Origin: Pegoplata infirma
Lineage: Eukaryota; Arthropoda; Insecta; Diptera; Anthomyiidae
NCBI GenBank assembly: GCA_963921195.1
Contig: OY992538.1
Location: 86,303,904 to 86,367,903, forward strand
DNA length: 64,000 bases
Reading direction: 5' to 3'
Part shown: in pieces, positions 3,001 through 61,159 of the stretch
How the letters are laid out: each line of letters opens with the position of its first letter
Position numbering within the stretch: the stretch's first letter is position 1
Position numbers and translations under genes: made by a program
Notes under the pieces: generated by a model
The model's input: only the letters and a program-made list of their open reading frames with translations
The model's database searches: none
Told to the model about the DNA's origin: nothing

Positions 3001-6000
3001 GCAATATTTTAGCCGTTTTTGCGCTGCAGAAAAATCAGCTCAAAATCCGCGTTTTCAGATCAAGGCACAAAATTTTTTCCAAAAAAATACCACCGTTCTT
3101 TTCAGCTCCCCTAAATTCTTAAAAAAATCATAATACCCTCAGATCAAAAATTTCTAAACAACTCTAATATTTGTAAAGTTTTTTTAACGAAAACAAAAAC
3201 TCGTTAGGGGGTACGCTGCTGATAAAGTTTAAAATTAGGGGTACTCGAGGCAAAAAGGTTTGCAACCGCTGGTCTACAGTATTATTTAAATTAAATCGAT
3301 GTAAATACATTAATAAAAAACAAGTGACGTTTGTTAACAAAAAAATCTATGCTTATCTGGTACGTATAAAACCTGTGTTAGAATCGATCACTGATCAATA
3401 ATTTATATACTTTATGGGGTCCTAGACCGATATTTCGATGCGTTACACACGGAATGACAAAGTGAGTATGCCCCCATACTGTAGTTGGAGGGTATAATAT
3501 AATACGGCTGTAAGAAAATTATTTTGTTTGTGGGGTTTGTTTAGTTGTTCAACGGAAAACTTAGATTTGTAAAATAAAATGATTTAAAATAAAAGTAATT
3601 ATTTTCTGCTTTAATTATTTTTTAGCTTCCGACAGTGAAAGTATTGAAACTGATTTGATGAATTTTCAGCTTAAATCAAATGGTAAGAACTATCATATTA
3701 TCAACACATCGATAACTATAAAATTTTCTTAAGAAACTTTTGTGTTGTCGATAACTATAGAATATTCTGTAGAAAACTTTGCGTTATCGATAACTTGAGA
3801 ATTTTCTATAGAAAAATTTTTGTTATCGATAGCTAGACTATTCTGTAGAAAGTTTAGTGTTATCGATAACTATAGAATTTTAACAGAAAATGTTGTATAA
3901 TCGGTAACTATAGAAAATTTTGCGTTATTGATTACTATAAAATTGTCTATAGAAAATTTTCTGTTATCAATAATTAAAGAATTTTGTTTAGAAAATTTTG
4001 TGTTTCAAGTTTTCGATAATTTGAGAATTTTCAATAGAAATTTTGTGCTATCGATAACTACATAATTTTCTATATAAAATTTTGTGTTATCGATAACTTC
4101 ACAATTTTCTATAGAACATTTTCTGTTATCGATAACTTTGGAATTTTCTATAGAAATTTTTGCGTTGTCAATAAATATAGAATTTTCTATAAAAACTTTT
4201 GTGTTATCGATAGCTATTGAATTTTCTATAGGAAATTTTGTGCTATCGATAACTATAGAACTTTCTATAGAAAACTTTGCTTTGTCGATATCAAAAATGT
4301 TAAATACTATTTTTTCTCTTCTCTTTACAACGCATGTACAGAATTTAATGACTGGAATGAAGATGATTGTCAAGATGTATTTGCTGGCATCAATACTGAT
4401 GAAATTTTGCTACATCATATGAAATCCAAAGACCTCCAAACACTCTCTAAAAATCTACAAAATGAAGAAAATTATTTAAAGGTTGTTACACCCATATTGC
4501 CGAAAATACATCAAAAACTAGAATCCTCTAAGTACGTAAGCTTTAAAACGGCTTCTGCAAAGACAATTAAAGTATCAAAAGAAGCTCATATTATGGCAGC
4601 TAAAATATTGAGCAAATTACCGGATATTGAAATGAATCCAAAAACAAATAACTGTGATATACCAATTATGGATAAAGGTAAGGGTATATTATAATTTAAG
4701 GAGAACTAAAAGTAACGAAAATCGATTTGAAATAATCGTATTATGTTCAAAAGTTTGAACAAAAAACTATTTTTATTTTAATAAAAATTAAACAGAATCA
4801 GAACTAAAATGATTTGTAACATTTTTAATTTAAAATTTGTTAAAAAAATTTCTCACTTTTAGATTCTACCAATGATGTAAATATTTTAGAAAATCCAAAT
4901 GATTATGAATGGAATGATGATTGTGATTTTTTTGCTAATTTTCACACACCAGTTATTCCTAAAGAAAGACTTACAAATACATTACAATATAAGGAAAAAG
5001 TGATAAATGATACGTTTTCATATATTAATGATTTTCCTAGTACCTCAAAAAATGCCTTAAAGACAAATATAGGATTTCAAACTGCAGCTGGTAAAAAAGT
5101 TGCAATATCCAAAAAAGCTCAAGAATCTGTACAAAAGCTCTTAGGAGAATTCACAAATGAACTCAATAAGAATTACAGCTGTGACAAATTAAAAGAAATG
5201 AAAACTAAAATTTATTCAAAAACGCATAATATAGAATTAAATAAAAATGAGGGTCTGTTAACAAATTTACAAAGTATAGACAAATGTGATAATGAGAATT
5301 TAATCAAAAGCTCTAAAGAATCTTTTCATACTGAAACAACAGATTTTAAATTGCTAAATGGAAATGTGGGTTTCCAAACTGCGAAAGGTAAAGATATCAA
5401 AATTTCCTTAAAAGCTCAACAAAGTGTTAAAAAGCTTTTAAACGAATTTGATACGATTTCTCTTAAAAATTTTGAAATTGATTTAGAAAAAACCAAACAA
5501 GAAATTAATAGAAATAATAATGAAACTAAAGTAGATGTTATTAAAACAGTATCTAAGAATAATTCAGATGAATCTAACAAAATTAACGGATTTCAAACTG
5601 CCAACTGTAAACAAGTTAAAATATCTCTAAAAGCTCAGCAAAATGTTGAAAAGCTTTTGAGTGAATTTAATTCAAAGACTAACAATAATTTCGAAAATGA
5701 TTTGGAAATAATGAAAAATAAAATATATTTTAAAAATCGCAAAACTGAATTAGAAAAACCCCTACATACCGAAATTGCAATACAACGGCCCAGTACTAGC
5801 AATAATCTATTGAAAGAAAAGGATGGTTTTCAAACAGCTAATGGCAAAAAGCTTAAAATATCTTTAAAAGCACAAAAAAGTGTTGAACAACTTTTAAAAG
5901 AATTCAATACAGATTCAAATGATAATTTTGAAAATGATTTAGAAACATTAAAAAATAATATAAATAAGAAAAAACCTGCTTTATGCAATATAGAAAATAA

Positions 6001-7249
6001 TGAAGACAAACATTTTAGTGAAAATAATGAAGACTTAGAAAATATAATATTAAGTGAATGGCCTTTAGTAAAACAGACTCAAAAAGAGATTTCCAAAAAT
6101 GTAATAGAGTTCACAAATTCAAATTCCATTAAATCGTCAACCTGCAATCGTAAACTAGAAGCTGAAGATAACAAATGTTCTCCAGTTAAAGCCGAATGTC
6201 CTAAAAATATTAGTGAAAATTATAATATTGAAATACCAAATTTAATAAATCAAGGCTTTCAAACTGCAAAAGGAAATAAAGTATCGATTTCAGTTAAAGC
6301 ACAACAAGCTGTTGATAAACTTTTGCAAGAATTTCGTTCAGAATTAGTTGGCAATAATTATGATCAAGGACTAATGCAAATGAAATCTAATATCGAAATG
6401 AAAAATAAACAATTAAAACAAAAAAACTTGCATAAAGAAACTAGTCAAGTGGAAAATGAGTATGCTAATATGATTTTAAGTGAATGGCCTTTAAGTCCTA
6501 ACAAAGATGATACACCAAACGAAACACCTAAACAATTAACGGCTAAAAGAAAACTTTCAATAGATAATAGTGAAATACCGTCTCCAATAGCAATTAAATC
6601 CCCTCCCTCTAAGATATTTAGCAAAGGTTTGTATACTTCAAAAAGTTCTATGAGCGAACTTGCGATGAGATCACCTTTAAATTCGTCACCAGCCAATTCT
6701 ATAATATCACGAAAAAATTTATTATCTTTAACTAAAAGACGTAAAAATAAGAAAAATTCAGTGATAAATATTGATAATGATACTTGCAATAATAATTTTA
6801 ATGATAAAGTTATAACAAAAGTTAATATGGAACACGTCGCTACACCTATAAAATCATCGATTACATTAGGAACTACAATACAAACGCCGGCAACACCAAA
6901 TTTAAAAGAATTCTTTTCATATGCTCCCCAAACTTCTACACCCAGAGTTGAGAAATTATCGAAATCATCACAAAACGTAATGGATGTTGACTTTAAAACT
7001 ATATGCTGGGATAATAATGAATCTACGGTTAATAAAACTTCATCAAATTTAAATCATTCTACAAAACTTTCGGATAGTTCTTGCTCTAACATTTCATTAA
7101 ATTCCCCAAATCCTACTGCTAAAGAACGTATAGCTCGTTTAAAAATGTATGGTAATGCTCCAGCTGTTTCACCAATTCTGATAGGCACTCATCATAATTG
7201 TCGTCCTTCCGGTTTAAGACGTACTCGTAGCATGCTTAAGAAAACATAA
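82..7249 (+). CDS. Brca2: BRCA2 homologue, BRC-repeat protein (4 exons)
   Basis: Homologous-recombination mediator that binds and loads RAD51 in the nucleus. I join exons 82-1432, 3626-3682, 4342-4677 and 4863-7249; every junction is GT-AG and phase 1, giving about 1376 residues. Six BRC-type repeats of the form FxTAxGKxxxISxKAQxxVxKLLxEF begin at about F537, F653, F752, F825, F904 and F1047. The first (FKTASAK) is the most divergent, and the fourth has C in place of G (TANCK). Exons 3 and 4 both open with an acidic tryptophan motif (DWNEDDC, EWNDDC). The motif ILSEWPL occurs after repeats five and six. The C-terminal ~250 residues are basic and rich in S/T-P sites; I see no helical/OB-fold DNA-binding domain. 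The frame is open upstream to the window edge, so ATG at 82 is the first methionine seen and earlier exons are possible. Exon 1 has no recognised domain and is assigned by splice phase only. Confidence 0.
2197..3377. mobile_element. TIR element with TTA target duplication, nested in the INE-1-like repeat
   Basis: The termini are inverted repeats of about 70 bp: left ACGTACCAGAAAAGCATAGA, right complement ACGTACCAGATAAGCATAGA. They are flanked by TTA at 2194-2196 and 3378-3380, exactly where the uninterrupted copy at 41.46 kb reads GTCTTAGAAT. Without the inner hAT insertion it is about 266 bp. A 3-bp TTA duplication suggests a PIF/Harbinger-type MITE; the superfamily is inferred. Confidence 0.7.
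2365..3271. mobile_element. hAT-type non-autonomous element, 8-bp duplication GTCTACAG
   Basis: It starts CAGCTGTTACCAACC and ends GGTTTGCAACCGCTG, an imperfect inverted pair, and is flanked by perfect GTCTACAG at 2357-2364 and 3272-3279. The 8-bp duplication and CAG...CTG termini fit hAT. GTACGCGTACCACTAGGGG is tandemly repeated just inside the left end (2382-2440). No transposase frame was seen. Confidence 0.8.
3705..4295. repeat. Intronic minisatellite with TATCGATA motifs
   Basis: About 16 degenerate copies of a unit near 38 bp fill most of Brca2 intron 2. Each unit combines GTTATCGATAACTATAGAA with the palindrome TTTTCTATAGAAAA. The exact 8-mer TATCGATA, which is the DREF-binding DRE of flies, occurs about eight times; other units carry one-base variants. 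Open frames across both strands here are by-products of the repeat. Confidence 0.85.
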
Positions 7250-16605: not shown

Positions 16606-17149
16606 CACTAAGAAAATTATGTAAGTTACTACATGTTAATTATTTGTATATTTTACAGTAGTCAGTTGTTTTTGTATGAAAAATATCAAACAACTATTTT
16701 TTATAGTTATTTAAAGTCGTTTTTTTGAACAACTAACAAAAAAGTACTGTGATGTAGTAACAGTTATTTAAAGTAGTTAATTTTATTTTTTTTATCTCTG
16801 AGAAATTTTCAGTTTTTTTCCAAAAAAATAAAAATAAATTTTCGTTTTTTTATTTTACACAATTTAAAAAAAAAAAAATTGGAAAAAATTTGGTCTTCAA
16901 ATTTTTTTTTTAATTTTATGAAAAAAATAAACAATTATAAATTAATTATTTTATTTTTACTACATTTAAGTTGTTTTTACTACAAATGTAAGTAGTTTTT
17001 ACTACATAAGTCAGTTGTTTTTTGTCAGTTAAAATAACTAACATTGTTAGTTGATTTAACTGAAAAAGTAGTTGACCCCAAAACAACTTACAAAGTAGTT
17101 ATTTTAACTGACATTTTCAGTTGATTTTACTAACATAATTTTTTGAGTG
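16606..17149. mobile_element. CACTCA-type MITE, copy 1
   Basis: The right end ACTAACATAATTTTTTGAGTG is the reverse of the family start CACTCAAAAAATTATGTTAG. The interior is a dense series of GTTAGTT / AACTAAC / AGTAGTTTTTACTACA blocks. Related copies: 23241, 30963, 31931 and 35869. Confidence 0.75.
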
Positions 17150-19055: not shown

Positions 19056-19391
19056 GCAAAGAAATCGGTCAAAACAGCAGAGAAATCTGCTAAGATATTT
19101 TTTTAAGAAAATTTTTGTTTTTAGAAAATTTGTTTTCAAGAAAACATTAATATATATTTTTTTAATTTAAACTTAAAAATAAAAAAAGGTTTCTGTAAAA
19201 TTATCAATATAATATACCTATTTTTTTTTAGTTATGTCAATTAGTCTCAATCGTTTTAATTGTATAAAAATCGAAAAAAATAACACTTTGAAAAAACATA
19301 TTAAGAAAGTTTTCTTCAAAAAAGAGTGACAAACTATTTCTGTAAAATTACAAGATAATCTGATAAAACAAATTTAAAAATATGTTTATAT

Positions 19392-20142
19392 GCTATTTAC
19401 ATATACCCCGAAATCCACATAAATTTGGATTTCAAATCCAATTAAAATCTATACCGTTTACATATGCTTTTTTGACATTTAGCGGGATTTTGTTTGTACT
19501 AACTCTGTATTTTCTTTTGATTTGTGTACAGGGTTGTTAGTTGGAAAATTACCCAATTTTATAAATATTTCTAAAAACAATGATTTTTCTTTGCCGGAGC
19601 CAATATTTTCCATCCCACTAGTATATGTTGGGACCACAATATCAAAAAATGTGTTTTTATGTAGAGCTGCTTCTTTAAATGCAAGAAAATTAACATTTTT
19701 GCCAAGTTTGGGGCCGCCACCATTGAGTGTTTTTCTTTGTTAGGAAGACCAAATTGGTCAACTAAATTGTGCGTTTACCATTTGCAATGGTAAATTTTAA
19801 ATGAAACATTGTTAAACATTGTTTTTATTAATCTTTTAATAGTTTTAAAAAAATAAATTTTAATTGTTTTTTTACTTTATAAAAAACAACAACAGCTGAT
19901 AAAAAATCGTGTGCAGCGTTGAAAAAAAACCATTAGGGGTGATTATTTTGGGAAAACCCATAGTTGTACAATTAAGTAGTAGACATTTTTTGGATTTTAA
20001 ATTGGGATTTTACGATTTTCCCAAAATCCAATTTTTTTTTTGTATGGGATTTGACATTTGAAATCCAAAAAAGTAATGGGATTTACTTGGATTTTCATTG
20101 AAATCCCATTTTTTTTGGATTTCGAGGCATATGTAAATGGCC
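19392..20142. mobile_element. ~750-bp TIR element with a conserved open frame, copy 1
   Basis: GCTATTTACATATACCCCG faces the complement of its right end CGAGGCATATGTAAATGGC. A core at 19485-19742 is open on both strands. The minus frame reads about 86 codons from 19740 to 19483 (contains KLGKNVNFLAFKEAALHK and SGKEKSLFLEIFIKLGNF). The plus frame is 73 codons but starts on TTG. The core is kept in the two copies at 60 kb. Product unknown; it may be a captured host exon. Confidence 0.6.
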
Positions 20143-20752
20143 TATTAAGAATATCGTTTTGATTGCATAAAAAAATTAACACTTTGCAAACTATTTCTGT
20201 ATAATTACAAAATAATCTGCTAAAAATATGTTCAAAAATATTTTGAAATTCAGTAGACAGAATCAGTAAAAACGCAGTAAAATTTCTGTTATTTTTAAAA
20301 CTGAATGACAGAGATTTTAGTAAAAATATCCATTTTAGCAGATAAACCTGCTGAAAGTTTGCGTTATCAAATTGAAAGTCGTTTTACAGATTTTTTGACA
20401 GATTTTTTCTTTTGAGTGTAGTAAATTGTTTTGTGGTAAAATTACGCCTATTAATAAAAAACACTTTATTTATGTATGTACTAGCTTACCATCCCGGTAC
20501 TTCGTTACCGGTTGTGCAGAATACAGAATAGAAGGATCAGGATTACTCTATCGATTTCCAAAAAATTCCCCTACGTAGTCTTTACTTTACTACCCCTACG
20601 TAGTCTTTGTTTTATTTACTTGTGGAAGTTTAAGTCTTCCATAAAAATATATTTCAATGAATAATTTAAACAATAAAATTTGAATAACTTCGCTGGTATG
20701 TTATCATGTTCATTCCGGGGGAAAAATATATTGACAATTTTCGAGCCCTTAT

Positions 20753-21572: not shown

Positions 21573-22136
21573 CTTTTTATAAAAGGTACTTTTTATAAAA
21601 GGTACTTTTTATAAAAGGTACTTCTTATAAAAGGTACTTTTTATAAAAGGTACTTTTTATAAAAGGTACTTTTTATAAAAGGTACTTTTTATAAAAGGTA
21701 CTTTTTATAAAAGGTACTTTTTATAAAAGGTACTTTTTATAAAAGGTACTTTTTATAAAAGGTACTTTTTATAAAAGGTACTTTTTATAAAAGGTACTTT
21801 TTATAAAAGGTACTTTTTATAAAAGGTACTTTTTATAAAAGGTACTTTTTATAAAAGGTACTTTTTATAAAAGGTACTTTTTATAAAAGGTACTTTTTAT
21901 AAAAGGTACTTTTTATAAAAGGTACTTTTTATAAAAGGTACTTTTTATAAAAGGTACTTTTTATAAAAGGTACTACTACTTTTTATAAAATGTACTTTTT
22001 ATAAAAGGTACTTTTTATAAAATGTACTTTTTATAAAAGGTACTTTTTATAAAAGGTACTTTTTATAAAAGGTACTTTTTATATAAGGTACTTTTTATAA
22101 AAGGTACTTTTTATAAAAGGTACTTTTTATAAAAGG
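21573..22136. repeat. 16-bp tandem array, ~35 copies
   Basis: The unit TTTTTATAAAAGGTAC repeats almost without change. Sparse variants include AATGTAC, ATATAAGG and one extra ACTACT near 21975. The preceding 21297-21570 holds two dispersed related blocks (CCGTTAAGAAACGGAATTTC next to AAAAGTACTTTT), the probable seed. The unit holds TATAAAA and the near-palindrome AAAGTAC/GGTACTTT. Confidence 0.95.
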
Positions 22137-22737: not shown

Positions 22738-23507
22738 AAAGAACAATTTAAATATCGATAAAAATTTTTTTGTTAAAAAACAAGGAAAACTGTCAAATAT
22801 TTGTAAAATTGGATTACAGGACCTTTTCTAGTAATTTGACAAGGTTTTTTTTTGAGTGTAGAACCAACTGTAATGAGAAATATGTGTTTAAAGTCACGTG
22901 AGCACAGTATTGCAAATATGTTTTTTTTTTATCTCAAATTTGTTTGCGGATTTTTTTTCACGAACATTTTTTTTTTTCACGAAAATTTTTTTTCCGCGCG
23001 GAAATTTTTTTTTTCAAAAACCTTTTTCCCCCAATATTTTTTATGTTACCAATTTTTTTTTTTCAAAAACCTTTTTTTCTCAAGATTTATTTATGTTACC
23101 AATTCTTTTAACAAACATTTTTGGTAATTTTTTGTTGAACAGTGAACATTCTTTTTCAAGTCCCTAAATTTTTTTAAATTAAAACTGTTTTTTACACCTC
23201 ACTGAATATTATTTATTAATTACTCTCTTTTTTTATTATACACTCAAAAAATTATGTTAGTAAAATCAACTGAAAATGTCAACTAAAATAACTACTTTGT
23301 AAGTTGGTTTTGGGTCAACTACTTTTTCAGTTAAATCAACTAACAATGTTAGTTATTTTAACTGACTTATGTAGTAAAAACTACTTACATTTGTAGTCAA
23401 AACAACTAAATAAGATAAGGTCGATAAAAATTATACTAAATTGTAATCATCGGAGGGCCCGCCGAATCTTAAGATATTAAAATATTATTGAATCATTTAA
23501 CTAAAAC

Positions 23508-25967
23508 ATGGAGAACTTTTTTATGCACATCAGATTTAAATACGACGTGGAAACATGTCAGTCACTAAAAACTTACTGCAAGATTATTAAAAAATTGGCT
23601 AAACATAAGGAAAGACTTAAATTTCTACTAGCTTGTAGGCAAAATGGAATTATACCAACACATATAAGAAACACAACGACTAAAACTAAACAACTTTTCG
23701 TGACAACAATATCACAACAACTTGGAAAAATTGAAATTAATTTCCATTTGAAAATTTTAAACCTGGAAATAAAAGAGACGAATTTAACTCTCAAAAACCT
23801 TAATTGGGATTTAAACAAAATTAGACATACCCTCAAAGAAACACTAAACGACGAAGAATTTGACAAATTCATAAGGAAACAGAAGACTAGATACAAAAAC
23901 TTTGTATCGAACAACAAACAGACACATTGTTCTAAGCTACAAAATCTTAAACGGAAACAATTAGAACAATTCAATTTAAAATATAACCCCTCTTGGTTTG
24001 TTAACAAAACAAATGTAAACTTTACGGAAGAAACAAAGTGGCTTCTTTCTCTAGGTTCTAAATTCGCCGTCCCTGTTAATGATAACAATTTTTCGACCGT
24101 AAACTTAATTGCTGATTTGGAACAGTGGGTACAAACGGTTTCCGACGATAGACAAAAGGATATAATTAGAACCAAAATAACAAACAGAATACTAACTCAC
24201 AAAAGAAAAGTAAGAAATAACCCAAAGGAAAAGTTTATCTTGAACATTTACGAAGAAACGAAGCGGTTTTTAAAAAGATACAAAGACGATATTGTGATCA
24301 CCAAATCAGATAAAGGCAACAAAACAGTCGTTATCTACAAAGAAGAATACAAAAAGGAGATGGAAAAGCTTCTACAAGATAAATCTACATATAAAACAAT
24401 GAGAACAGATCCAACCCAAAAGCTTTTAAGGACAAACAACAATCTGGTATTGGATCTTTTTAAACAGGGATATATCACGAAATTTGAGAAAAATAAACTC
24501 ACATCAAACGCAGCAACAGCACCAAGATTGTATGGTTTACCAAAAATTCACAAGCCAAATATACCACTACGACCTATCTCATCATCAATAGAAGTCCCAT
24601 GCTATAAGCTATCAAAACATATTGGAGGCATTTTGAGAAACATTATACTTGACAAATACAACATTAAAAATTCGTTAGAGTTAAAAGAAAAACTAGAAGT
24701 CGTGTCTTTGGATGAGAATGAAATTTTAATTTCTCTTGACGTGGTATCGTTGTTCACCAACATACCGATACATTTGGCTATAAACAATATAATGGCCCAA
24801 TGGAGCACCCTAAGAAACCATACACAAATACCCAGAACACATTTCCTTAAAATATTACAGTTTTGCTTAAATGACAACAACTACTTCATCTATGATAAAA
24901 CAATTTTCAACCAAACTTACGGAATGCCTATGGGTAACCCACTATCGCCCACAATAGCGGACATTGTATTGGATACATTATTAGAAAGAACCACGGAAGA
25001 ACTACGGGAGAAAAATGTACACATAAAACTAATAACAAAATATGTAGATGATCTTTTTGCCATCATTAAAAAGAGTGATGAAAAAATTATTTTGGAAACG
25101 TTTAATAAATACCACAACAAACTTAAATTTACCATCGAAAAAGAACAAAACGGATCGATACCATATCTTGATATGAGAATTTATAGGGAACACAACGGCA
25201 TAATTACAGATTGGTATACAAAAAACATCGCATCGGGACGACTTATAAACTACCACTCCACTCAGCCAATGGGACAAAAAACAAATACGGCCATCAACCT
25301 AATCAAAAAAGTTGTAAAAATAAGTGACAATAAGTTTTTACAAAAAAACATAACTAAAATTAAAGATATTTTACTTAATAATAACTATCCACAAAAAATC
25401 ATCACCAATTTAATTAAACGGGCAACTAATGAAGAAAGTCGGGAAAGTCGTATGAATAAAACATCTGGCATCACCAAATTTTTAAGTCTCTCATACATAC
25501 CAAAACTCACTGAGAGCAAACAAATAAAGGAATTGATAGATGATGAAACAGTTTTAGTAGCTCACAAAGCTAACAACACAATCTCCTCACTATTCACAAC
25601 AACAAAAACGAAAATAGAAAAAATACAACAGAGCAATGTTGTATATGAAATCGAATGTGTGGGCAATGATAACGAGACGTGCGGCAAAGTTTATGTAGGG
25701 ACAACAAAAAGAAGTTTAGGCACAAGAATAAATGAACACAAAACAGATATTGAAAAACAAAAATATACAACAGCTTTGGCGGTTCATTGTTTTGAAATGA
25801 AACACACCCCAAACCTCACCGACGTAAAAATTCTTGATAGGGAAAGGAAGATGAACAAGAGATTTACATTGGAGAGCCTACGAATCCAGGAGAGAAATAA
25901 TCTTGCCATAAATAAAAAAGAAAATAAAGACAATGCAAATGCAAACTACAACTTAGCTTTAATTTAG
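23508..25967 (+). CDS. Penelope-like reverse transcriptase/GIY-YIG endonuclease, copy 1
   Basis: An intact 819-residue ORF starting at an ATG in good context (AACATGG). It copies element RNA and nicks the target. RT landmarks in order: DKGN at about 268, YGLPKIHKP from 342, SLDVVSLFTN with catalytic D411, GMPMGNPLSP from 472, and YVDD at 512-515. The C-terminus holds a Penelope-type GIY-YIG endonuclease: VYEIEC from about 712, a C-x-C linker (C717, C725), VYVGTTKR with Y729, then R740 and E743-H744. Length and order match the endonuclease-bearing Penelope group. There are no stops or frameshifts, so activity is possible. Confidence 0.95.
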   Translation: MENFFMHIRFKYDVETCQSLKTYCKIIKKLAKHKERLKFLLACRQNGIIPTHIRNTTTKTKQLFVTTISQQLGKIEINFHLKILNLEIKETNLTLKNLNWDLNKIRHTLKETLNDEEFDKFIRKQKTRYKNFVSNNKQTHCSKLQNLKRKQLEQFNLKYNPSWFVNKTNVNFTEETKWLLSLGSKFAVPVNDNNFSTVNLIADLEQWVQTVSDDRQKDIIRTKITNRILTHKRKVRNNPKEKFILNIYEETKRFLKRYKDDIVITKSDKGNKTVVIYKEEYKKEMEKLLQDKSTYKTMRTDPTQKLLRTNNNLVLDLFKQGYITKFEKNKLTSNAATAPRLYGLPKIHKPNIPLRPISSSIEVPCYKLSKHIGGILRNIILDKYNIKNSLELKEKLEVVSLDENEILISLDVVSLFTNIPIHLAINNIMAQWSTLRNHTQIPRTHFLKILQFCLNDNNYFIYDKTIFNQTYGMPMGNPLSPTIADIVLDTLLERTTEELREKNVHIKLITKYVDDLFAIIKKSDEKIILETFNKYHNKLKFTIEKEQNGSIPYLDMRIYREHNGIITDWYTKNIASGRLINYHSTQPMGQKTNTAINLIKKVVKISDNKFLQKNITKIKDILLNNNYPQKIITNLIKRATNEESRESRMNKTSGITKFLSLSYIPKLTESKQIKELIDDETVLVAHKANNTISSLFTTTKTKIEKIQQSNVVYEIECVGNDNETCGKVYVGTTKRSLGTRINEHKTDIEKQKYTTALAVHCFEMKHTPNLTDVKILDRERKMNKRFTLESLRIQERNNLAINKKENKDNANANYNLALI

Positions 25968-26219
25968 TCAATTTTAAACTGTGATACAAAAAGAAAGAAA
26001 GTTCATCTGTGATATATTTTATTTTATTATTTTTATTATTTATTTTATTTATTTTTGTGTTTTATGTGGTACTTGTTGTATTGTTTAAAAACAAATTTAT
26101 TTAAAATTATAATGTAAAGATTATATGTAAGTGGAATTATTCTTTTATGTTGTGTTAGTTTAAAAAAAATTATTAAATTAAAAAAATATTGTTCTTTATT
26201 TTCCATAACGTTGCCAGAT

Positions 26220-26290
26220 TCAATAAAATTTAAATCCCTGAGGAAGTTGAAAAAATCTCAACGAAACGTCGGAGGAGTAAAATTATGAAT
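26220..26290 (+). ncRNA. Hammerhead-like ribozyme motif, PLE copy 1
   Basis: CTGAGGA (26238-26244), then a hairpin GTTGA-loop-TCAAC, then GAAAC and GTC (26268-26270). TCC before the core pairs with GGA after GTC for helix I, which can extend through AT-rich flanks. Hammerhead ribozymes are known in Penelope-like elements. Cautions: one extra A lies between the CTGAGGA box and helix II, and helix III is reduced to one or two pairs (AC/GT), so cleavage may need a dimer. Cleavage is predicted after 26270. Confidence 0.55.
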
Positions 26291-26463
26291 AAATAGTCTT
26301 TTATTTTTCATTTACTGTGACCTTGAAAGCCTGACTTAGATAATTCTAAGAAAAAACAACATAATTATAGATAAGGTCGATAAAAATTATACTAAATTGT
26401 AATCATCGGAGGGCCCGCCGAATCTTAAGATATTAAAATATTATTGAATCATTTAACTAAAAC

Positions 26464-28923
26464 ATGGAGAACTTTTTTATGCACATCAGATTTAAATACG
26501 ACGTGGAAACATGTCAGTCACTAAAAACTTACTGCAAGATTATTAAAAAATTGGCTAAACATAAGGAAAGACTTAAATTTCTACTAGCTTGTAGGCAAAA
26601 TGGAATTATACCAACACATATAAGAAACACAACGACTAAAACTAAACAACTTTTCGTGACAACAATATCACAACAACTTGGAAAAATTGAAATTAATTTC
26701 CATTTGAAAATTTTAAACCTGGAAATAAAAGAGACGAATTTAACTCTCAAAAACCTTAATTGGGATTTAAACAAAATTAGACATACCCTCAAAGAAACAC
26801 TAAACGACGAAGAATTTGACAAATTCATAAGGAAACAGAAGACTAGATACAAAAACTTTGTATCGAACAACAAACAGACACATTGTTCTAAGCTACAAAA
26901 TCTTAAACGGAAACAATTAGAACAATTCAATTTAAAATATAACCCCTCTTGGTTTGTTAACAAAACAAATGTAAACTTTACGGAAGAAACAAAGTGGCTT
27001 CTTTCTCTAGGTTCTAAATTCGCCGTCCCTGTTAATGATAACAATTTTTCGACCGTAAACTTAATTGCTGATTTGGAACAGTGGGTACAAACGGTTTCCG
27101 ACGATAGACAAAAGGATATAATTAGAACCAAAATAACAAACAGAATACTAACTCACAAAAGAAAAGTAAGAAATAACCCAAAGGAAAAGTTTATCTTGAA
27201 CATTTACGAAGAAACGAAGCGGTTTTTAAAAAGATACAAAGACGATATTGTGATCACCAAATCAGATAAAGGCAACAAAACAGTCGTTATCTACAAAGAA
27301 GAATACAAAAAGGAGATGGAAAAGCTTCTACAAGATAAATCTACATATAAAACAATGAGAACAGATCCAACCCAAAAGCTTTTAAGGACAAACAACAATC
27401 TGGTATTGGATCTTTTTAAACAGGGATATATCACGAAATTTGAGAAAAATAAACTCACATCAAACGCAGCAACAGCACCAAGATTGTATGGTTTACCAAA
27501 AATTCACAAGCCAAATATACCACTACGACCTATCTCATCATCAATAGAAGTCCCATGCTATAAGCTATCAAAACATATTGGAGGCATTTTGAGAAACATT
27601 ATACTTGACAAATACAACATTAAAAATTCGTTAGAGTTAAAAGAAAAACTAGAAGTCGTGTCTTTGGATGAGAATGAAATTTTAATTTCTCTTGACGTGG
27701 TATCGTTGTTCACCAACATACCGATACATTTGGCTATAAACAATATAATGGCCCAATGGAGCACCCTAAGAAACCATACACAAATACCCAGAACACATTT
27801 CCTTAAAATATTACAGTTTTGCTTAAATGACAACAACTACTTCATCTATGATAAAACAATTTTCAACCAAACTTACGGAATGCCTATGGGTAACCCACTA
27901 TCGCCCACAATAGCGGACATTGTATTGGATACATTATTAGAAAGAACCACGGAAGAACTACGGGAGAAAAATGTACACATAAAACTAATAACAAAATATG
28001 TAGATGATCTTTTTGCCATCATTAAAAAGAGTGATGAAAAAATTATTTTGGAAACGTTTAATAAATACCACAACAAACTTAAATTTACCATCGAAAAAGA
28101 ACAAAACGGATCGATACCATATCTTGATATGAGAATTTATAGGGAACACAACGGCATAATTACAGATTGGTATACAAAAAACATCGCATCGGGACGACTT
28201 ATAAACTACCACTCCACTCAGCCAATGGGACAAAAAACAAATACGGCCATCAACCTAATCAAAAAAGTTGTAAAAATAAGTGACAATAAGTTTTTACAAA
28301 AAAACATAACTAAAATTAAAGATATTTTACTTAATAATAACTATCCACAAAAAATCATCACCAATTTAATTAAACGGGCAACTAATGAAGAAAGTCGGGA
28401 AAGTCGTATGAATAAAACATCTGGCATCACCAAATTTTTAAGTCTCTCATACATACCAAAACTCACTGAGAGCAAACAAATAAAGGAATTGATAGATGAT
28501 GAAACAGTTTTAGTAGCTCACAAAGCTAACAACACAATCTCCTCACTATTCACAACAACAAAAACGAAAATAGAAAAAATACAACAGAGCAATGTTGTAT
28601 ATGAAATCGAATGTGTGGGCAATGATAACGAGACGTGCGGCAAAGTTTATGTAGGGACAACAAAAAGAAGTTTAGGCACAAGAATAAATGAACACAAAAC
28701 AGATATTGAAAAACAAAAATATACAACAGCTTTGGCGGTTCATTGTTTTGAAATGAAACACACCCCAAACCTCACCGACGTAAAAATTCTTGATAGGGAA
28801 AGGAAGATGAACAAGAGATTTACATTGGAGAGCCTACGAATCCAGGAGAGAAATAATCTTGCCATAAATAAAAAAGAAAATAAAGACAATGCAAATGCAA
28901 ACTACAACTTAGCTTTAATTTAG
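26464..28923 (+). CDS. Penelope-like reverse transcriptase/GIY-YIG endonuclease, copy 2
   Basis: Translates to the same 819 residues as the ORF at 23508, with all RT and GIY-YIG landmarks kept (YVDD at 27997-28008). Its 5' leader, unlike that of copy 1, is preceded by a full upstream copy. If promoter sequence lies in the 3' half of the element, as in other Penelope-like elements, this is the copy likely to be transcribed as a complete unit. Confidence 0.95.
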   Translation: MENFFMHIRFKYDVETCQSLKTYCKIIKKLAKHKERLKFLLACRQNGIIPTHIRNTTTKTKQLFVTTISQQLGKIEINFHLKILNLEIKETNLTLKNLNWDLNKIRHTLKETLNDEEFDKFIRKQKTRYKNFVSNNKQTHCSKLQNLKRKQLEQFNLKYNPSWFVNKTNVNFTEETKWLLSLGSKFAVPVNDNNFSTVNLIADLEQWVQTVSDDRQKDIIRTKITNRILTHKRKVRNNPKEKFILNIYEETKRFLKRYKDDIVITKSDKGNKTVVIYKEEYKKEMEKLLQDKSTYKTMRTDPTQKLLRTNNNLVLDLFKQGYITKFEKNKLTSNAATAPRLYGLPKIHKPNIPLRPISSSIEVPCYKLSKHIGGILRNIILDKYNIKNSLELKEKLEVVSLDENEILISLDVVSLFTNIPIHLAINNIMAQWSTLRNHTQIPRTHFLKILQFCLNDNNYFIYDKTIFNQTYGMPMGNPLSPTIADIVLDTLLERTTEELREKNVHIKLITKYVDDLFAIIKKSDEKIILETFNKYHNKLKFTIEKEQNGSIPYLDMRIYREHNGIITDWYTKNIASGRLINYHSTQPMGQKTNTAINLIKKVVKISDNKFLQKNITKIKDILLNNNYPQKIITNLIKRATNEESRESRMNKTSGITKFLSLSYIPKLTESKQIKELIDDETVLVAHKANNTISSLFTTTKTKIEKIQQSNVVYEIECVGNDNETCGKVYVGTTKRSLGTRINEHKTDIEKQKYTTALAVHCFEMKHTPNLTDVKILDRERKMNKRFTLESLRIQERNNLAINKKENKDNANANYNLALI

Positions 28924-29175
28924 TCAATTTTAAACTGTGATACAAAAAGAAAGAAAGTTCATCTGTGATATATTTTATTTTATTATTTTTATTATTTATT
29001 TTATTTATTTTTGTGTTTTATGTGGTACTTGTTGTATTGTTTAAAAACAAATTTATTTAAAATTATAATGTAAAGATTATATGTAAGTGGAATTATTCTT
29101 TTATGTTGTGTTAGTTTAAAAAAAATTATTAAATTAAAAAAATATTGTTCTTTATTTTCCATAACGTTGCCAGAT

Positions 29176-29246
29176 TCAATAAAATTTAAATCCCTGAGGA
29201 AGTTGAAAAAATCTCAACGAAACGTCGGAGGAGTAAAATTATGAAT
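29176..29246 (+). ncRNA. Hammerhead-like ribozyme motif, PLE copy 2
   Basis: Identical to the motif in copy 1, 2956 bp downstream: CTGAGGA 29194-29200, GAAA 29219-29222, GTC 29224-29226. Cleavage at both sites would release an RNA of exactly one element length. The same structural cautions apply. Confidence 0.55.
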
Positions 29247-30263
29247 AAATAGTCTTTTATTTTTCATTTACTGTGACCTTGAAAGCCTGACTTAGATAAT
29301 TCTAAGAAAAAACAACATAACTAAAATTTAGTAAAAATAAAATAATCAATATATAATTTTTTTTCAAACATTTTTCAGAGAAAAACTGAAGACCAAATTT
29401 TTTCAAAGTTTTTTTTTTAAAAAAAAGTTGTGAGAAATAAAAAAACAAAAATTTATTTTAATTTTTTGGAAAAAACTTAGTAAAAATAAAATAATCAATA
29501 TATAATTTTTTTTTTCAAAAATTTTTCAGAAAAAAAACTGAAGACCAAGTTTTTTCAAAGTTTTTTTTTTTTTTTAAAAAGTTGTGAAAAATAAAAAAAC
29601 AAAAATTTATTTTAATTTTTTGGAAAAAACTTAAAAAAATTTTCAGAGATAAAAATATAAAATTTACTACTTTAAATAACTGTTACTACATTGCAGTACT
29701 TTTTTGTTAGTTATCCAAAAAAACTACTTAAAATAACTAACAGAAATAGTTGTTTGATATTTTTCATACAAAAACAACTGACTTTGTAGTTGAAAACAAC
29801 TAACTACTGTAAAATATACAAACAACTAACATGTAGTAACTTACATAATTTTCTAAGTGAATCTTAGTTTTCTCAATAGTAGTGTTGGTGCAAATAGAAC
29901 CTTGTTGTTCTAAGGTCGCGATATGTTAACAGAATTAGATACCAAAAGGTATTTAAACATGTGCAAATATGTTTTTTTTTATCTCAAATTTGTTTGGGGT
30001 TTTTTTTCACGAACATTTTTTTTCGCGCGGAATTTTTTTTTGCGCGGAAATTTTTTTTCAAAAACCTTTTTCCCCCAATTTTTTTATGTTATCAATTTTT
30101 TTTCAAAAACCTTTTTTTCTCAAGATTTATTTATGTTACCAATTCTTTTAACAAACATTTTTGCTAATTTTTTGTTGAACAGTGAACATTCTTTTTCAAG
30201 TACCTAATTTTTTTTAAATTAAAACTGTTTTTTACACTTCACTGAATATTATTTATTAATTAC

Positions 30264-30933
30264 ATTTTGAGGATGTTTATTCTGGCTCGAGGTCATTATT
30301 TTCTTTACTAATTAAAACCATGATATTCTCATAGCATAATTTTCAAGAAAATTATTTTTTGTTTTAAATTTATTTATGTTGGTTATTTTTGCAAGACTTA
30401 ATCGACACGTGTTTCGGAATTTGTCAAGATTCCATTGTCAAGATTATTTAGCAAAAATAGAAACGATTTACTACAAAGTAGCAAACGAGTCTAATGACAA
30501 ATCGTTTGCGCACAAACTAAAGTATAAGAACATATTCGTCTCTATCCACAATGTGAATTAGAAAGACGAAAATATTGTACTATACTAGTAAGGCATCGGT
30601 TGTCAATAACCAACAAAAATATTTAAAACATTTTACATATGACTACAACAATATGTTATTTGTTGTTGTGAATGTAATAACCACATTAGGGTTATTCATC
30701 ACTATGGCGTGCCAACCATTATGTTCAAATTCTGATTAATTTTTATTAAAAAATAAAAATTGTTTTATAAATTTAAAACAAAAAATAATTTTCTTGAAAA
30801 TTATGCTATGAGAATATCATGGTGTTAAATAGTAAAGAAAATAATGACCTCGAGCCAGAATAAACATCCTCAAAATATAATATTTTAAAGGTCGAATAAA
30901 ACAATTTTTATTTTTTAATAAAAATTAATCAGA
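30264..30933. mobile_element. 670-bp TIR insertion in tandem unit 2
   Basis: Compared with the sister linkers, extra DNA lies between two copies of ATTTATTAATTAC (30251-30263 and 30934-30946), a possible 13-bp target duplication. ATTTTGAGGATGTTTATTCT on the left is inverted near 30.86 kb, with arms about 110 bp. A second inverted pair (CTGATTAATTTTTATTAAAA) is at 30.73 and 30.9 kb. No transposase. Confidence 0.65.
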
Positions 30934-30962
30934 ATTTATTAATTACTCTTTTTTTTATTATA

Positions 30963-31519
30963 CACTCAAAAAATTATGTTAGTAAAATCAACTGAAAATG
31001 TCAATTAAAATAACTACTTTGTAAGTTGGTTTGGGGTCAACTACTTTTTCAGTTAAATCAACTAACAATGTTAGTTATTTTAACTGACTTTTGTAGTAAA
31101 AACTACTTACATCTGTAGTCAAAACAACTAAAATTTAGTAAAAATAAAATAATCAATATATAATTTTTTTTTCAAAAATTTTTCAGAAAAAAAACTGAAG
31201 ACCAAATTTTTTCAAAGTTTTTTCTTTAAAAAAAAGTTGTGAAAAATAAAAAAAACAAAAATTTATTTTAATTTTTTGGAAAAAACTTAAAAAATTTTTC
31301 AGAGATAAAAATATAAAATTTACTACTTTAAATAACTGTTACTACATTACAGTACTTTTTTGTTAGTTATCCAAAAAAACGACTTAAAATAACTAACAGA
31401 AATAGTTGTTTGATATTTTTCATACAAAAACAACTGACTTTGTAGTTGAAAACAACTAACTACTTACTGTAAAATATACAAACAACTAACATGTAGTAAC
31501 TTACATAATTTTCTAAGTG
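30963..31519. mobile_element. CACTCA-type MITE of tandem unit 2, uninterrupted
   Basis: Runs from CACTCAAAAAATTATGTTAG to CATAATTTTCTAAGTGA. It is the undisturbed reference for the split copies 23241-29859 (Penelope dimer inside) and 31931-33250 (hAT MITE inside). Confidence 0.8.
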
Positions 31520-32439
31520 AACCTTAGTTTTCTCAATAGTAGTGTTGGTGTAAATAGAACCTTGTTGTTCTAAGGTCGCGATATGTTAACAGAATTAGAT
31601 ACGAAAACGTACTTAAACATGTGCAAATATGTTTTTTTTTTATCTCAAATTTTTTTGCGGATTTTTTTTCACGAAAATTTTTTTTCGCGCGGATTTTTTT
31701 TTTCAAAAATCTTTTTCCCCCAATATTTTTTATGTTACCAATTTTTTTTTTTCAAAAACCTATTTTTCTCAAGATTTATTTATATTACCAATTTTTTTAA
31801 CAAACATTTTTGCTAATTTTTTGTTGAACAGTGAACATTTTTTTTCAAGTCCCTAAATTTTTTTAAATTAAAACTGTTTTTTACGCCTCGCTGAATATTA
31901 TTTATTAATTACTCTTTTTTTTTTATTATACACTCAAAAAATTATGTTAGTAAAATCAACTGAAAATGTCAGTTAAAATAACTACTTTGTAAGTTGCTTT
32001 GTGGTCAACTACTTTTTCAGTTAAATCAACTAACAATGTTAGTTATTTTAACTGACTTATGTAGTAAAAACTACTTACATTTGTAGTCAAAACAACTAAA
32101 ATGTAGTAAAAATAAAATAATCAATATATAATTTTTTTTTCAAACATTTTTCAGAAAAAAACTGAAGACCAAATTTTTCCAAAGTTTTTTTTTTTAAAAA
32201 AAGTTGTGAAAAATAAAAAAACAAAAATTTATTTTAATTTTTTGGAAAAAACTTAAAAAAGTTTTCAGAGATAAAAATATAAAATTTACTTCTTTAAATA
32301 ACTGTTACTACATTGCAGTGCTTTTTTGTTAGTTATCCAAAAAAACGACTTAAAATAACTATCAGAAATAGTTGTTTGATATTTTTCATACAAAAACAAC
32401 TGACATTGTAGTTGAAAACAACTAATTACTGTAAAATAT

Positions 32440-35355: not shown

Positions 35356-35868
35356 AATTTCACTTCAAATGTTGGTTGCAAATTGGCAAAAGCTTTCTTA
35401 ATCTAAAATTCCAATGATTTCTTCTTTACGAAATTTAGTATTTCATATTCACAACAGCAATCTTTATAGTGCTTAAACAAAAATATCAATATTTTAAAAA
35501 ATATATAACAAACCTGGTTTTCAGCTTAAAATTTCATATATGAAGTAAAAGCCTGATATCTATCGGTCGTGAAAAAAAATATTTTGTAACGAACCTTGGA
35601 CGCCGCGAGTTCTATCCCAGCCACCAGTGGAAATTCGTCGTTACAATGGCTATATAGTACATTGGTGTTCTCATTTTGGCCAGAATGCCTTAAACCAATT
35701 AATTTTAATAATTCGAAAGATTAATTAAATACATCTTCAAGATATAATTTTCTTACGGTTGGCGTATTAATTAGAAAAATTTTCAAAAAAAATTATTAAA
35801 ACCGCATTTGATGCAAAATCGGGTATTTCCTAAAAAAAAATCGGGTATTTCTTAGTAAAACTATTTTA

Positions 35869-36417
35869 CACTCAGAAAATTATGTTAGTTACTACATGTC
35901 AGTTATTTGTATATTTTACAGTAGTAAGTTGTTTTCAACGGCAAAGTCAGTTGTTTTTGTATGAAAAATATCAAACAACTATTTCTGTTAGTTATTTTAA
36001 GTCCTTTTTTTGAACAACTAACAAAAAAGTACTGTAATGTAGTAACAGTTATTTAAAGTAGTTAATTTTATTTTTTTATCTGAAAAATTTTCAAAGTTTT
36101 TTTCCAAAAAATTAAAATAATGTTTTGTTTTTTTAAATATTCACAACTTTAAAAAAATAAAAAACTTTGAAAAAATTTTTTCTTCAATTTTTTTCTGAAA
36201 CATTTTTTATTGATTATTTTATTTTTACTACATGGTTATTGTTTTGACTACAAATGTAAGTAGTTTTTACTACATAAGTCAGTTGTTTTTTGTCAGTTAA
36301 AATAACTAACATTGTTAGTTGATTTAACTGAAAAAGTAGTTGACCCCAAAACAACTAACAAAGTAGTTATTTTAACTGACATTTTTAGTTGATTTTACTA
36401 ACATAATTTTTTGAGTG
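35869..36417. mobile_element. CACTCA-type MITE, full-length 549 bp
   Basis: CACTCAGAAAATTATGTTAG faces CTAACATAATTTTTTGAGTG, flanked by TA on both sides. This is the cleanest solo copy of the family that also forms the 23-33 kb tandem units. Confidence 0.85.
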
Positions 36418-36499
36418 TACAAAAGAATACATCTAAAATGGTTTCAAATTGGAAAATACGACCATAATTTGTAATACATATAACAATTTTTATATGGTA

Positions 36500-47000: not shown

Positions 47001-49920
47001 AGGGGTGGTATTTTTTATTATAATTTTTAATTTTCTTTAGAATGCTGTTAATTTCTTTAACAAAACAAAGACTTTTTTATTTAAAACTAAAAAATCAATA
47101 AACTTGAAAATGGTTGTAAATTTTGTAAATACAGTGCTGCCGCAGCACTGCAGGAGTGGTGCTGACGTAACACGTGTGATACAAAAAAAAAACAGGGTTG
47201 GGGCAACGCTATATTTTTATAACCGTCGGCAATTTCTGACTGGGTAGTTACCAACAACTATTTCTCATCAACTATGGCATAGTTGGGGTTATTTCACCTA
47301 TGACATAGTTGAAAAAATAGTAATCAACAACTATGTAATTTTTTTGGGTGTATTACTCGTGTATACGATTATACTCGGTTACATGGTTTTATTGACATTT
47401 TTTGATTCGAATCAAAAAATGTCAAGGATCCTTCCATAAACAAACAAAACATGCCAAAATATTGTGTTTTTCTGGAGTTTATTTTAGTTCTTCAAGTTTG
47501 GCAGATTTACGAACTTGATTTTTTATATAAACGCCCCCAAAAAACTATTTTTGTTCTAAAAAATTAAATTAGGTCTATTCGATTACCCAAATTTCTTACT
47601 ATTTTTTACTACAACTGGAAAGTCTTGTTTACTTTTTGTATTGAAAATTTCCAGCTGTAGTAAAATGAGTAAAAAATAGTAGATTGTAGTAAGGTAATCG
47701 AATAGACCTATTGTTTCTTTTTCTAAAAAAATTAAAAAAAAAAAACATCTAAAAAAAGATTATTTTTGTTCGATCTAGACAATTTCCGAACTAAAACCTT
47801 TGATCAGCCTTTCACCACAAGACAAGTTCGGAAGTCTACCTTTTTTATACCCTATTTACACAGTACAGTTTTAGTCGTTTTTAGCAGCAATATTTTTAGC
47901 ACTTTCTTTATTCTATTACAGTATATTGACAGAAAATGCTAAAAATAATTGCTAAAAACGGTTTAAAACTGTAAGTGTGAAAAGGGTATTAGTTAGGACT
48001 GCATCGTGCTACACACAGACGGGTGGGCGGACATTCAAAGAATGCCTTCCCAATAAACAATTTTAAAATTAAAGTGCAAATCAAGTGTCATCCAAGCTCA
48101 AAATTCAAGCCCATGCTTGATTTATAATTGGATTATACTTGAATTTAATAGCATACTCCAGCAAAACGGACACTAGAATTCAAGCCCTGTTTTTATATGG
48201 AGTTCACTCTAGCGACCTTATACCCTATTCACACGTACAATTTTAAATCGTTTTTAGCAGCAATATTTTTAGCACTTTCTTTATTCTATTACAGTATATT
48301 GACAGAAAATGCTAAAAATAGTTGCTAAAAACGGTTTAAAACTGTAAGTGTGAATAGGGTATTAAACAAGTTGTTCAACAAAACACCAGTAGCAGAATAA
48401 AAACGTAATGGACACAGAACAAAGACTTTTTTAAACATCTCACTCTTGAACACTTCAAAACAGCAATTGTGAACGCCGTATTACAGCCTTATCACTGATT
48501 TTACAGTGTAAAAACAGGGCTTAAATTCAAGTGTCCGTTTTTCTGGAGAATGCTATTGAACTGAAGTGTAATTCAAGTATAATTCAAGCATAGACTGGAA
48601 ATTAGGGAAATTAGATTTACACTTGAATTATACTTGAATTTCAGGAATTTTTCAAGTGGCTTTTTGGGTTAGAATTGATCGCTGTTACACATGCAATGAC
48701 AAATTACTCATACTATAGTAACTATAGTATAAAATCTTAAACTTACATCATAAAAGTTTTCTCCTGGATGTTGATTAAAACCGGGAAATTCAACAACTTT
48801 TGAAATATTATATTTATGATTTGTTGTATCTACTTCACCCTCGTCTTCGTCGGAATTTAACATTTTAGAACCCTGAAATAAAATGTACAAATTTTTAAAA
48901 AATTTACTTTCAAAACCAAAAAAAAAAGTAACTTACATCGGAATTGAATAGATTTATGCCCGAATGTTCAACTTTAGCTTCTTCCAACCAACCAGGTGGA
49001 TAACCCAAAACCCGCATGCGATAAAAGAAAAATGGTAATTCTCCTTTACGCAGACCCAAAGCTTCCCTGAGTTTGTCACTTATACAACCGGGTTTTAAGT
49101 GGGCAAATCGCTGTTCAACGTCCACATGATAGCGTTCAGTTTTGAAAACCGATCTTCTAGCATTTTTTATACGTTTAGCATTATGAGGCTTTGGGCATTC
49201 TTTAATACTATGACCAGAATCACCACAATTAAAACAGGAATTATTTTTGGTTTTCTTAAATACATTCTCCTCTAGCTTTTGTTTTTTATGGGCTGCAGCT
49301 TCTTCATCCAGGAGTGCATCTTTTATTGCCCTTTTGTACGAAGGAACCTTCACAGTATCTATCTTTGCGGCCGGTTCAGTATCTATCATAAATAACTCAC
49401 TCAAACCGGTCAAATCAGGAGATTGTTCTTTATCAAAACGTTCTGGTTTCTCTTCAATAGGAGAAGCTGATGGCGTCTTAACACACGGTGGCATAGGAAT
49501 ATTCTCTATATCGTCCTTTGTTGCATATTTAACAGTCAAAGTTACGGATTCTTCGTCTTTTTTGGTTATAATTTCAACTTTTGGTTCAGTCTCCGTTCCA
49601 TTTAATTTGTCTTTTAATGTGGTTATAATTAAGTAGCCAAATTTATGAAATTTGCTTATATTATCAAATTTAATTTCGCATATATTGCCCTGTTCATTAT
49701 ATTCATTGTCATCTTCTGCATCTTCACTAACTTCTCCTTCTTCCATGTCGAGTTGAACAACAGCAGTATCGTTGTCAGCTGGCAAGGAAGGAGGTGCTGG
49801 CGGAATTTCCTCATCCACAGTATTTAGCTTTTCGCCATCTTGCGAGTCATCCAATGTAATACAAGTTATATCTGGTTCTTGTATAATACAATCACTATCG
49901 TTTGGATTAAATTTCGGCAT
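44028..49920 (-). CDS. ZCCHC8: ZCCHC8 homologue, NEXT-complex scaffold (3 exons)
   Basis: Exons 49920-48937, 48872-48747 and 44837-44028 join in phase 0 at GT-AG borders to give 639 residues. ZCCHC8 bridges the MTR4 helicase and RBM7 in the nuclear exosome targeting complex that degrades short-lived nuclear RNA. The N-terminal third is acidic. A CCHC zinc knuckle is at C229, C232, H237 and C242. A PSP domain follows (about 262-370, PFFFYRMRVLGYPPGWLEEA then FPGFNQHPGENFYD, split by both introns). After it come a proline-rich stretch (about 446-476), a short coiled coil (about 485-504) and the C-terminal MTR4-contacting type segment (GTPVLKFSPYDN... from about 582, ending FENLPDSTGKYEQM...). 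The ATG at 49920 follows a short 5' UTR. Intron 1 is 64 bp; intron 2 is 3.9 kb of transposons. Confidence 0.93.
45083..45704 (+). repeat. Dispersed ~600-bp repeat, copy 2 (ZCCHC8 intron 2)
   Basis: Matches 22135-22737 from GGGTTTTGCAAAGTCAGTTC to CTGCATCAAATT with scattered changes and one deletion near 45270. It is antisense to ZCCHC8. Confidence 0.75.
45855..47247. mobile_element. TIR element with TACCCAGTCAGAAAT ends
   Basis: TACCCAGTCAGAAAT on the left faces ATTTCTGACTGGGTA on the right. TCTGACTGGG is repeated inverted right at the left end. The ends resemble CCCAGGCAGAAA of the 17.3 kb element. It contains the repeat at 46531-46960. No transposase. Confidence 0.55.
46531..46960. repeat. 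Interspersed repeat with CTAGCTGGACCCGG head
   Basis: Begins ACTAGCTGGACCCGGCCCGC. It then has three degenerate copies of a ~150-bp block of the form AGTTCC...CTCGGTTAGTACTATCT...AAATCGGTTTAGC. A related but shorter head (CTAGCTTACCATCCCGGTAC) is at 20480. Insect genomes carry many such repeats; class not assigned. Confidence 0.5.
47570..47710. mobile_element. 141-bp hairpin MITE (AGGTCTATTCGATTACC ends)
   Basis: AGGTCTATTCGATTACC faces GGTAATCGAATAGACCT. Inner arms include TACTATTTTTTACTACA and complement. ATT borders both sides. Confidence 0.75.
47848..47988. mobile_element. 141-bp MITE, TTA duplication (TACCCTATTCACAC family), copy 1
   Basis: TACCCTATTTACACAGTACA faces GTAAGTGTGAAAAGGGTA, with TTA at 47845-47847 and 47989-47991. 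Nearly identical in length and interior to 48221-48361. Confidence 0.85.
48196..48480. mobile_element. MITE of the TATGGCATTCACAC family, TTA duplication, middle layer
   Basis: Flanked by TTA at 48193-48195 and 48481-48483. It is 285 bp with the inner element, 141 bp without it and one TTA, the same as the solo copy at 15246-15386. Confidence 0.85.
48221..48361. mobile_element. 141-bp MITE (TACCCTATTCACAC family), copy 2, inner layer
   Basis: TACCCTATTCACACGTACA faces GTAAGTGTGAATAGGGTA; TTA at 48218-48220 and 48362-48364. It splits the middle element at GCGACCTTA/AACAAG, the join visible uninterrupted at 15.26 kb. Confidence 0.9.
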
Positions 49921-61158: not shown

Positions 61159-61159
61159 A

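Follow-up and report, generated by a model that had tools for sequence, protein, structure and literature searches.

A head-to-tail dimer of a Penelope-like element in Pegoplata infirma, its probable origin in a single insertion, and what it suggests about tandem replication

How does a Penelope-like element (PLE) come to stand in a genome as two complete and identical copies in head-to-tail order, when one copy of such a tandem is usually truncated (PMC8969392)? The question is raised by a stretch of 64,000 nucleotides from the fly Pegoplata infirma, called the window below (contig OY992538.1; C3:86303904-86367903 in an assembly of 1.384 Gb and 813 contigs), which reads without any N and carries such a dimer. 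We think it probable that the dimer is one recent insertion of a canonical fly PLE, made as a two-unit array from an RNA that carried a unit junction, plausibly a circle produced by a hammerhead ribozyme. At the level of sequence this reading is supported by the completeness and identity of the two units, by a junction of the type usual in the family, by a target duplication flanking the dimer and by fixed ends downstream of a hammerhead motif.

Comparison of the window with itself revealed a perfect direct repeat of 2952 bp (0 mismatches, period 2956, spacer TTAT), which cannot have arisen by chance. We number a unit of 2956 nt, with u1 at 23413 and 26369 and with TTAT as u2953-2956. Copy 1, complete from u1 to u2952, then lies at 23413..26364, the closing TTAT at 26365..26368 and copy 2, also complete, at 26369..29320, all on the forward strand, as are the other parts of the element described here. 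Both open reading frames (ORFs; copy 1 at 23508..25967, supported also by profile match, alignment and structural model, and copy 2 at 26464..28923) are open and identical, giving 819 amino acids and then a stop. With 0 differences in 2952 positions, the 95% upper bound on divergence between the copies is 0.10%, compared with 4.4% (gaps included) between two adjacent units of the repeat array in which the dimer sits. The dimer is most probably an intact, very recent PLE insertion of a known kind. A first-pass annotation had reported two full copies 2956 bp apart that encode the same 819-residue protein, retain the catalytic landmarks and show no differences, all of which the base-by-base comparison and the alignment described below bear out; its span of 23415-29319 captured the repeat itself but was wrong by a few bases at its start and ends. 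Read in order, the dimer presents the candidate transcription start of copy 1, a hammerhead motif, two start sites and a hairpin, followed by copy 2's intact ORF and, last, another hammerhead motif.

RVT_1 (PF00078) matches the protein with an E value of 5.7e-10 (24546..25145 in copy 1, 27502-28101 in copy 2), and SLDVVSLF, YGMPMGNP and YVDD, which we take to be the named reverse transcriptase (RT) motifs that they resemble, are conserved in an alignment of 16 sequences that includes the window protein. An AlphaFold model (mean pLDDT 89.6, pTM 0.83) gave, in a Foldseek comparison with the PDB, five top matches that were all telomerase structures (best E 2.8e-10, with TM-scores of only 0.28-0.41); a PDB search by sequence gave four matches at E<=1, to maturase, GsI-IIC and retron-type RTs (best 1.3e-4). 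Judged by sequence and model, the predicted RT is like that of telomerase (TERT). In the same alignment Y714, C718, C726, Y730, G732, R741, H745, E790 and N803 are unchanged, and an invariant C..C/H..H pattern is present as well; together they mark a GIY-YIG endonuclease region from Y714 to N803 (25644..25913 in copy 1, 28600-28869 in copy 2), in which we presume that each residue has its customary role. The Pfam GIY-YIG profile (PF01541) matches one of the 48 members of a wider alignment and misses the window protein, so that the assignment rests on the residue alignment; PF01541 is present in the precomputed domain list of a relative, P0059, that is 49% identical to the PLE protein. Among the best 120 of 453 protein matches, the closest is 99% identical and lies on a 2585-bp contig, and the named relatives come from Calliphora, Haematobia, Eurosta, Rhagoletis and Musca, among others. 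A TERT-like RT, GIY-YIG residues C-terminal of it, tandem or partial-tandem units with a pseudo-long terminal repeat (pLTR), a minimal hammerhead motif within the pLTR and an optional 3' tail of 30-40 bp are all found here, and we classify the element as a canonical endonuclease-bearing (EN+) PLE with C-terminal GIY-YIG, its RT, endonuclease and ribozyme activities being predicted. The identification as an apparently intact PLE stands on the RT, the GIY-YIG region and the open ORFs. Naiad-type PLEs are defined by an N-terminal GIY-YIG; such a permuted element is ruled out by the position of the residues at 714-803 of 820. A retrozyme, non-autonomous and non-coding, is ruled out by the intact 819-residue ORF in every unit.

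Did the two copies arrive together? The dimer lies in a repeat with sister units at 30934-32439, and joining its two flanks led to two empty sister sites within the window (31126..31132 and 32094..32100). The empty sites read CAAAACAACTAAAAT; the left flank ends in CAACTAAA followed by TA, and the right flank starts with (AA)CTAAAAT. The whole dimer is bracketed by a target duplication of 5 bp, or of 7 bp when the element's terminal AA is included: AACTAAA (at minimum CTAAA) at 23404..23410 on the left, followed by a filler TA at 23411-23412, and CTAAA at 29321..29325 on the right, where the AA at 29319-29320 is common to the element end. Under equal rules a 7-bp duplication was reached in 41 of 20,000 random placements. 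The duplication flanks the entire dimer and the junction has the canonical form of the family, and both support a single insertion, as a dimer. The target repeat is itself about 966 bp long, AT-rich and both tandem and dispersed (29472-32439, 35857-36419 and 16654-17149). Target and element end have AAAACAAC in common as well, on both sides; the local score was reached at 395 of 20,000 random places, and this likeness, tested only after it had been noticed, is only suggestive.

The junction can be judged against other 3' ends in the genome. All 26 distinct 3' ends that we read in the element's own family (the window, L010-L012, L016-L018, L022, L025, L029, L043, L057, L058, L063, L064, L066-L074, L081 and L082) fall at two sites 34 nt apart, seven at site 1 (ACAACATA/A) and 19 at site 2 (TACTAAAT/TG); nine of the latter belong to a single short derivative, and L058, 97% identical, stops a few nt before the usual site 2. 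We regard these as putative RT start sites: site 1 (ACAACATAA) lies at 26356..26364 and recurs at 29312-29320 as the 3' end of the dimer, and site 2 (TACTAAATTG), the "tail" end, lies at 26390..26399. A related family (the 89% family) has ten of ten 3' ends at the same two sites, five at each (L013, L014, L015, L019, L020, L021, L024, L027, L028 and L075). The table from a search with the junction (40 of 633 candidates scored) has 40 rows, three without a 3' end; of the other 37, seven end at query positions 199-204 (site 1) and 29 at 230-239 (site 2), and as this table favours longer matches it also favours site 2. Own-family copies that end at site 2 continue from ACAACATAA through TTAT into the first bases of the next unit; TTAT therefore belongs to the unit, and the dimer's junction was copied from a template. 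Its constancy in copies running past it also rules out a template jump with an untemplated TTAT, and its recurrence at junctions of the family argues for a templated dimer over a later duplication or two insertions.

What lies around these sites offers a clue to the RNA. Both copies carry TCC-CTGAGGA-A-GTTGA..TCAAC-GAAACGTC-GGA, a hammerhead motif at 26235..26273, with a predicted cut after 26270, and exactly 2956 nt further at 29191..29229, with a predicted cut after 29226. Across seven family sequences from the host genome its stem II is paired in 35 of 35 cells, with two-sided changes in three of five pairs, compared with 25-54% of cells paired in slid controls. Site 1 lies 92-94 nt beyond the predicted cut, in sequence with ACAACA, and 99 nt upstream of the ATG, and the ORF begins 193 nt past the cut; the hammerhead and site 1 both lie in the non-coding stretch. 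A sequence conserved in related families is predicted to fold into a putative RT-start domain at 26319..26378, in which GACCTT (26319-26324) would pair with AAGGTC (26373-26378), enclosing an inner hairpin and the A-rich site 1. Beyond the domain stands a GC hairpin, TCGGAGGGCCCGCCGA (26406..26421; also 23450-23465), putatively a protein-binding site, which is identical at five of five aligned internal junctions. It is absent after terminal start sites, occurs within the arrays examined only internally or at the array start and, among the 14 own-family loci tabulated, is found only in L010.

These features recall a PLE studied in the anole, Poseidon of Anolis carolinensis (PAc, of the Penelope/Poseidon clade; PMC11167929). 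PAc shares with the fly PLE its domain order and tandem units, the hammerhead core CUGAGGA-N-stem II-GAAACGUC, an internal start of RT at ACAACA, some 90 nt beyond the cut, and two start sites with the tail between them and an AT-rich target (PMC11167929). Counted on the RNA printed there, its RT start ACAACACA lies 82-89 nt past the cut, against 92-94 nt in the fly PLE. In PAc the RNA downstream of the start is required, and the start sites match genomic "tail" ends (PMC11167929). They differ in that the PAc hammerhead overlaps the ORF start and its RT start falls inside the ORF, whereas both are non-coding in the fly. Penelope of Drosophila virilis, by its description in PMC11167929, is likewise a fly PLE with GIY-YIG and an optional tail of 30-40 bp; the part of PMC12910113 drawn on here makes no statement on the tandem structure of D. 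virilis elements. The PLEs of Calliphora vicina, Haematobia irritans, Eurosta and Rhagoletis, compared as proteins, have full-length proteins that are, in the named records, 48-55% identical to that of the window. Metazoan retrozymes also form tandem units with type I hammerheads, and their authors propose that circular RNA templates give tandem cDNA (PMC7229834); they are non-autonomous, with repeats of 150-450 bp and canonical hammerheads (PMC7229834), whereas the fly PLE is autonomous with a minimal one.

The first-pass annotation had also proposed looking for other copies in the genome and comparing their junctions. A query with the unit (40 of 895 candidates scored, giving 52 matches) returned, among the matches listed, a sole other near-identical complete copy, L010 (C1:227036714-227039666), which differs from the unit by three substitutions plus indels and is preceded by a 205-bp truncated copy in the classic pLTR form. 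Next closest to complete is L012 (C1:306802636-306805525), with the first 39 nt absent and about 57 bp lost internally; the remaining copies at 98-100% identity among those matches lack their 5' part or are fragments. Measured in units, the arrays span 1.02 (L036), 1.07 (L010), 1.29 (L032), 1.62 (L031), 1.62 (L078, obtained by division of its coordinates), 1.80 (L033), 2.00 (the window) and 2.79 (L030). The last, an array of a related family (C4:14438900-14448300; measured by self-comparison), comprises one 5'-truncated unit and two nearly or fully complete units, and its units can be told apart by one and three mismatches. That one copy of a PLE tandem is usually truncated, as the annotation had remarked, agrees both with most of these arrays and with PMC8969392. 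In addition, two related PLE copies 99.8% alike lie inverted head-to-head at L035 (C2:147084200-147089900), the order expected if both target strands were extended. No related DNA was found in viral contigs, and a collection of genome contigs gave one bacterial stretch only, which is uninformative.

Nine copies were seen of a short PLE derivative of about 330 bp (L066-L073 and L081; for example C2:142297860-142298041), which extends from u2554 as far as site 2, lacks 91 bp (u2715-2805), has no ORF and keeps the hammerhead (with one core change in L081); it is likely either a non-autonomous passenger or a set of repeated 5'-end products of one source. In five of eight aligned short derivatives the first bases are AGTCAATTTT, at the ORF stop codon (25966..25975; also 28922-28931); this looks like a transcription start. 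Since they begin there, the 5' end of the dimer is unlikely to be an RNA 5' end, and a transcription start at u1, which would have explained that exact end, is disfavoured. At the dimer's 5' end a second lap of the unit is incomplete by 4 nt (6 if the 7-bp duplication is taken); the 5' end of L012, at u40 with its 3' end at u30, leaves one lap less 9 nt and includes a 24-bp stutter of the GC hairpin region. We regard lap closure as suggestive only, because other arrays end elsewhere in the unit, the target shares AAAACAAC and the search favours long copies.

How might such a dimer be made? On an RNA carrying the unit junction, the PLE enzyme would bind the hairpin that follows start site 1, nick AT-rich DNA, begin copying internally at ACAACATAA and continue for 5908 nt, crossing one junction and stopping at the next. 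Insertions end upstream of the hairpin, so a linear transcript should lose one unit per round; were the hairpin region needed, reverse transcription could begin at internal junctions only, and n units in a linear transcript would yield n-1 at most. Arrays of 1.02-2.79 units nonetheless exist in this genome. A circle formed after two hammerhead cuts would restore the junction and permit any number of laps, and strand transfer through the pLTR would likewise restore it; the sequence evidence is compatible with both. Of these templates we favour, tentatively and at somewhat less than even odds, a unit-length circle, cut by hammerheads from a tandem transcript, ligated and copied for two laps. Otherwise the template would have been a multi-unit linear RNA from another array, or one re-entered through the pLTR repeats.

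These last two alternatives compete with the circle only and leave the single templated insertion untouched. A longer array, of at least about 3.1 units if its transcript starts at the upstream stop codon, could have given an RNA that was reverse transcribed from an internal junction into two units; an mRNA of multiple copies has been proposed for PAc (PMC11167929), and a related family has the 2.79-unit array at L030. No own-family array exceeds 1.9986 units among the 52 matches listed, however, and if the hairpin is needed arrays losing at least one unit per round would not be self-maintaining. As a linear template also leaves unexplained why the 5' end falls at a unit boundary, which differs from the candidate transcription start, we judge it unlikely. 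Alternatively, an RT reaching the 5' end of a pLTR-unit RNA might have moved to the matching 3' region in the style of long terminal repeat elements, with no circle formed. A pLTR-unit locus of this kind is at hand in L010 with its 205-bp repeat, and the canonical junctions that transfer predicts are those found, but we know of no RNase H or transfer step in PLEs and consider this route decidedly improbable.

Could the dimer instead have been built without a two-unit template? A recent duplication of one inserted copy would give identical copies, as the first-pass annotation had allowed, and two separate insertions might also be imagined; yet the junction has exactly the TTAT of the family and no target duplication (CTAAA), one would not expect end joining to regenerate TTAT, and an insertion of 0.9986 units offers no terminal repeat for unequal exchange. 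Origins of this type are very improbable. Of the earlier overall reading, the intact PLE and its recent insertion as a dimer are upheld and the later duplication is disfavoured. An assembly error in which a single copy was doubled in the graph is suggested by 2.95 kb of perfect identity, but a junction running into hairpin and ORF would have had to be borrowed, and only L010 of the tabulated own-family loci has the hairpin; moreover, the same assembly contains an array with distinguishable units (L030), and its contigs of 228-332 Mb suggest long reads. We find such an error unlikely, its chance being very small.

Several observations weigh against the circle, and some against the single templated insertion more generally. 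The PAc hammerhead cut only with protein present, its mutants still supported insertion in vitro, and public reads showed no RNA ends at the cut (PMC11167929). In the fly PLE there is no Rfam hammerhead match at E<=1, the outer pair of stem I is unpaired in two of seven families, and the +3 slid control of stem II also gives two two-sided pairs. Hammerhead cleavage and the RNA circle are predictions from sequence, and that the downstream hairpin is needed is a supposition drawn from the anole truncations and from the hairpin's conservation. One of the 37 tabulated 3' ends, at C1:294405834 and outside the 26 read, stops between the sites at query 222. Microhomology with the target on both sides (AAAACAAC) may account for the unit-exact length better than a counting of laps does. 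Finally, no parent array long enough for a linear template was found among the matches listed (40 of 895 candidates scored), and a longer parent may be lost, unassembled or unscored.

The remainder of the window contains host sequence and other repeats. An ORF at 4844-7246 has BRCA2 repeats (Pfam E 1e-21), and a ZCCHC8-like exon with PSP and zinc knuckle lies on the reverse strand at 48913-49923, its closest named proteins being those of Musca (54%) and Haematobia (53%), which points to a higher fly as host. A 16-bp tandem repeat (35 copies, 96% matches) occupies 21573-22136; a 1.5-kb palindromic inverted repeat (95%), made of 242-bp tandem units, occupies 53415-54936; and repeats of about 95-96% similarity, some direct and some inverted, lie at 19380-20145, 59616-60396 and 60491-61179.

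The class of this element is already known, and it is its ends and junction that bear on PLE replication, that is, on how PLEs keep their tandem form. The role of the hammerhead in PLEs has been called "still a mystery" (PMC7761336), and the literature, searched at the level of listings, yielded no experimental report of circular PLE templates, which is no proof of absence. Every insertion read has its 3' end before a conserved element that seems necessary in the RNA, so propagation would need a step that restores the junction. We offer, with slightly more reserve than for the circle at this locus, the proposal that PLEs replicate through hammerhead-made circular RNA, which the PLE protein copies from an internal start site through a single lap or several, the tandem pLTR being both a product of this process and a requirement for it. 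If this is true, lap closure would have left its footprints in the dimer, at exactly two laps, and in L012, at one.

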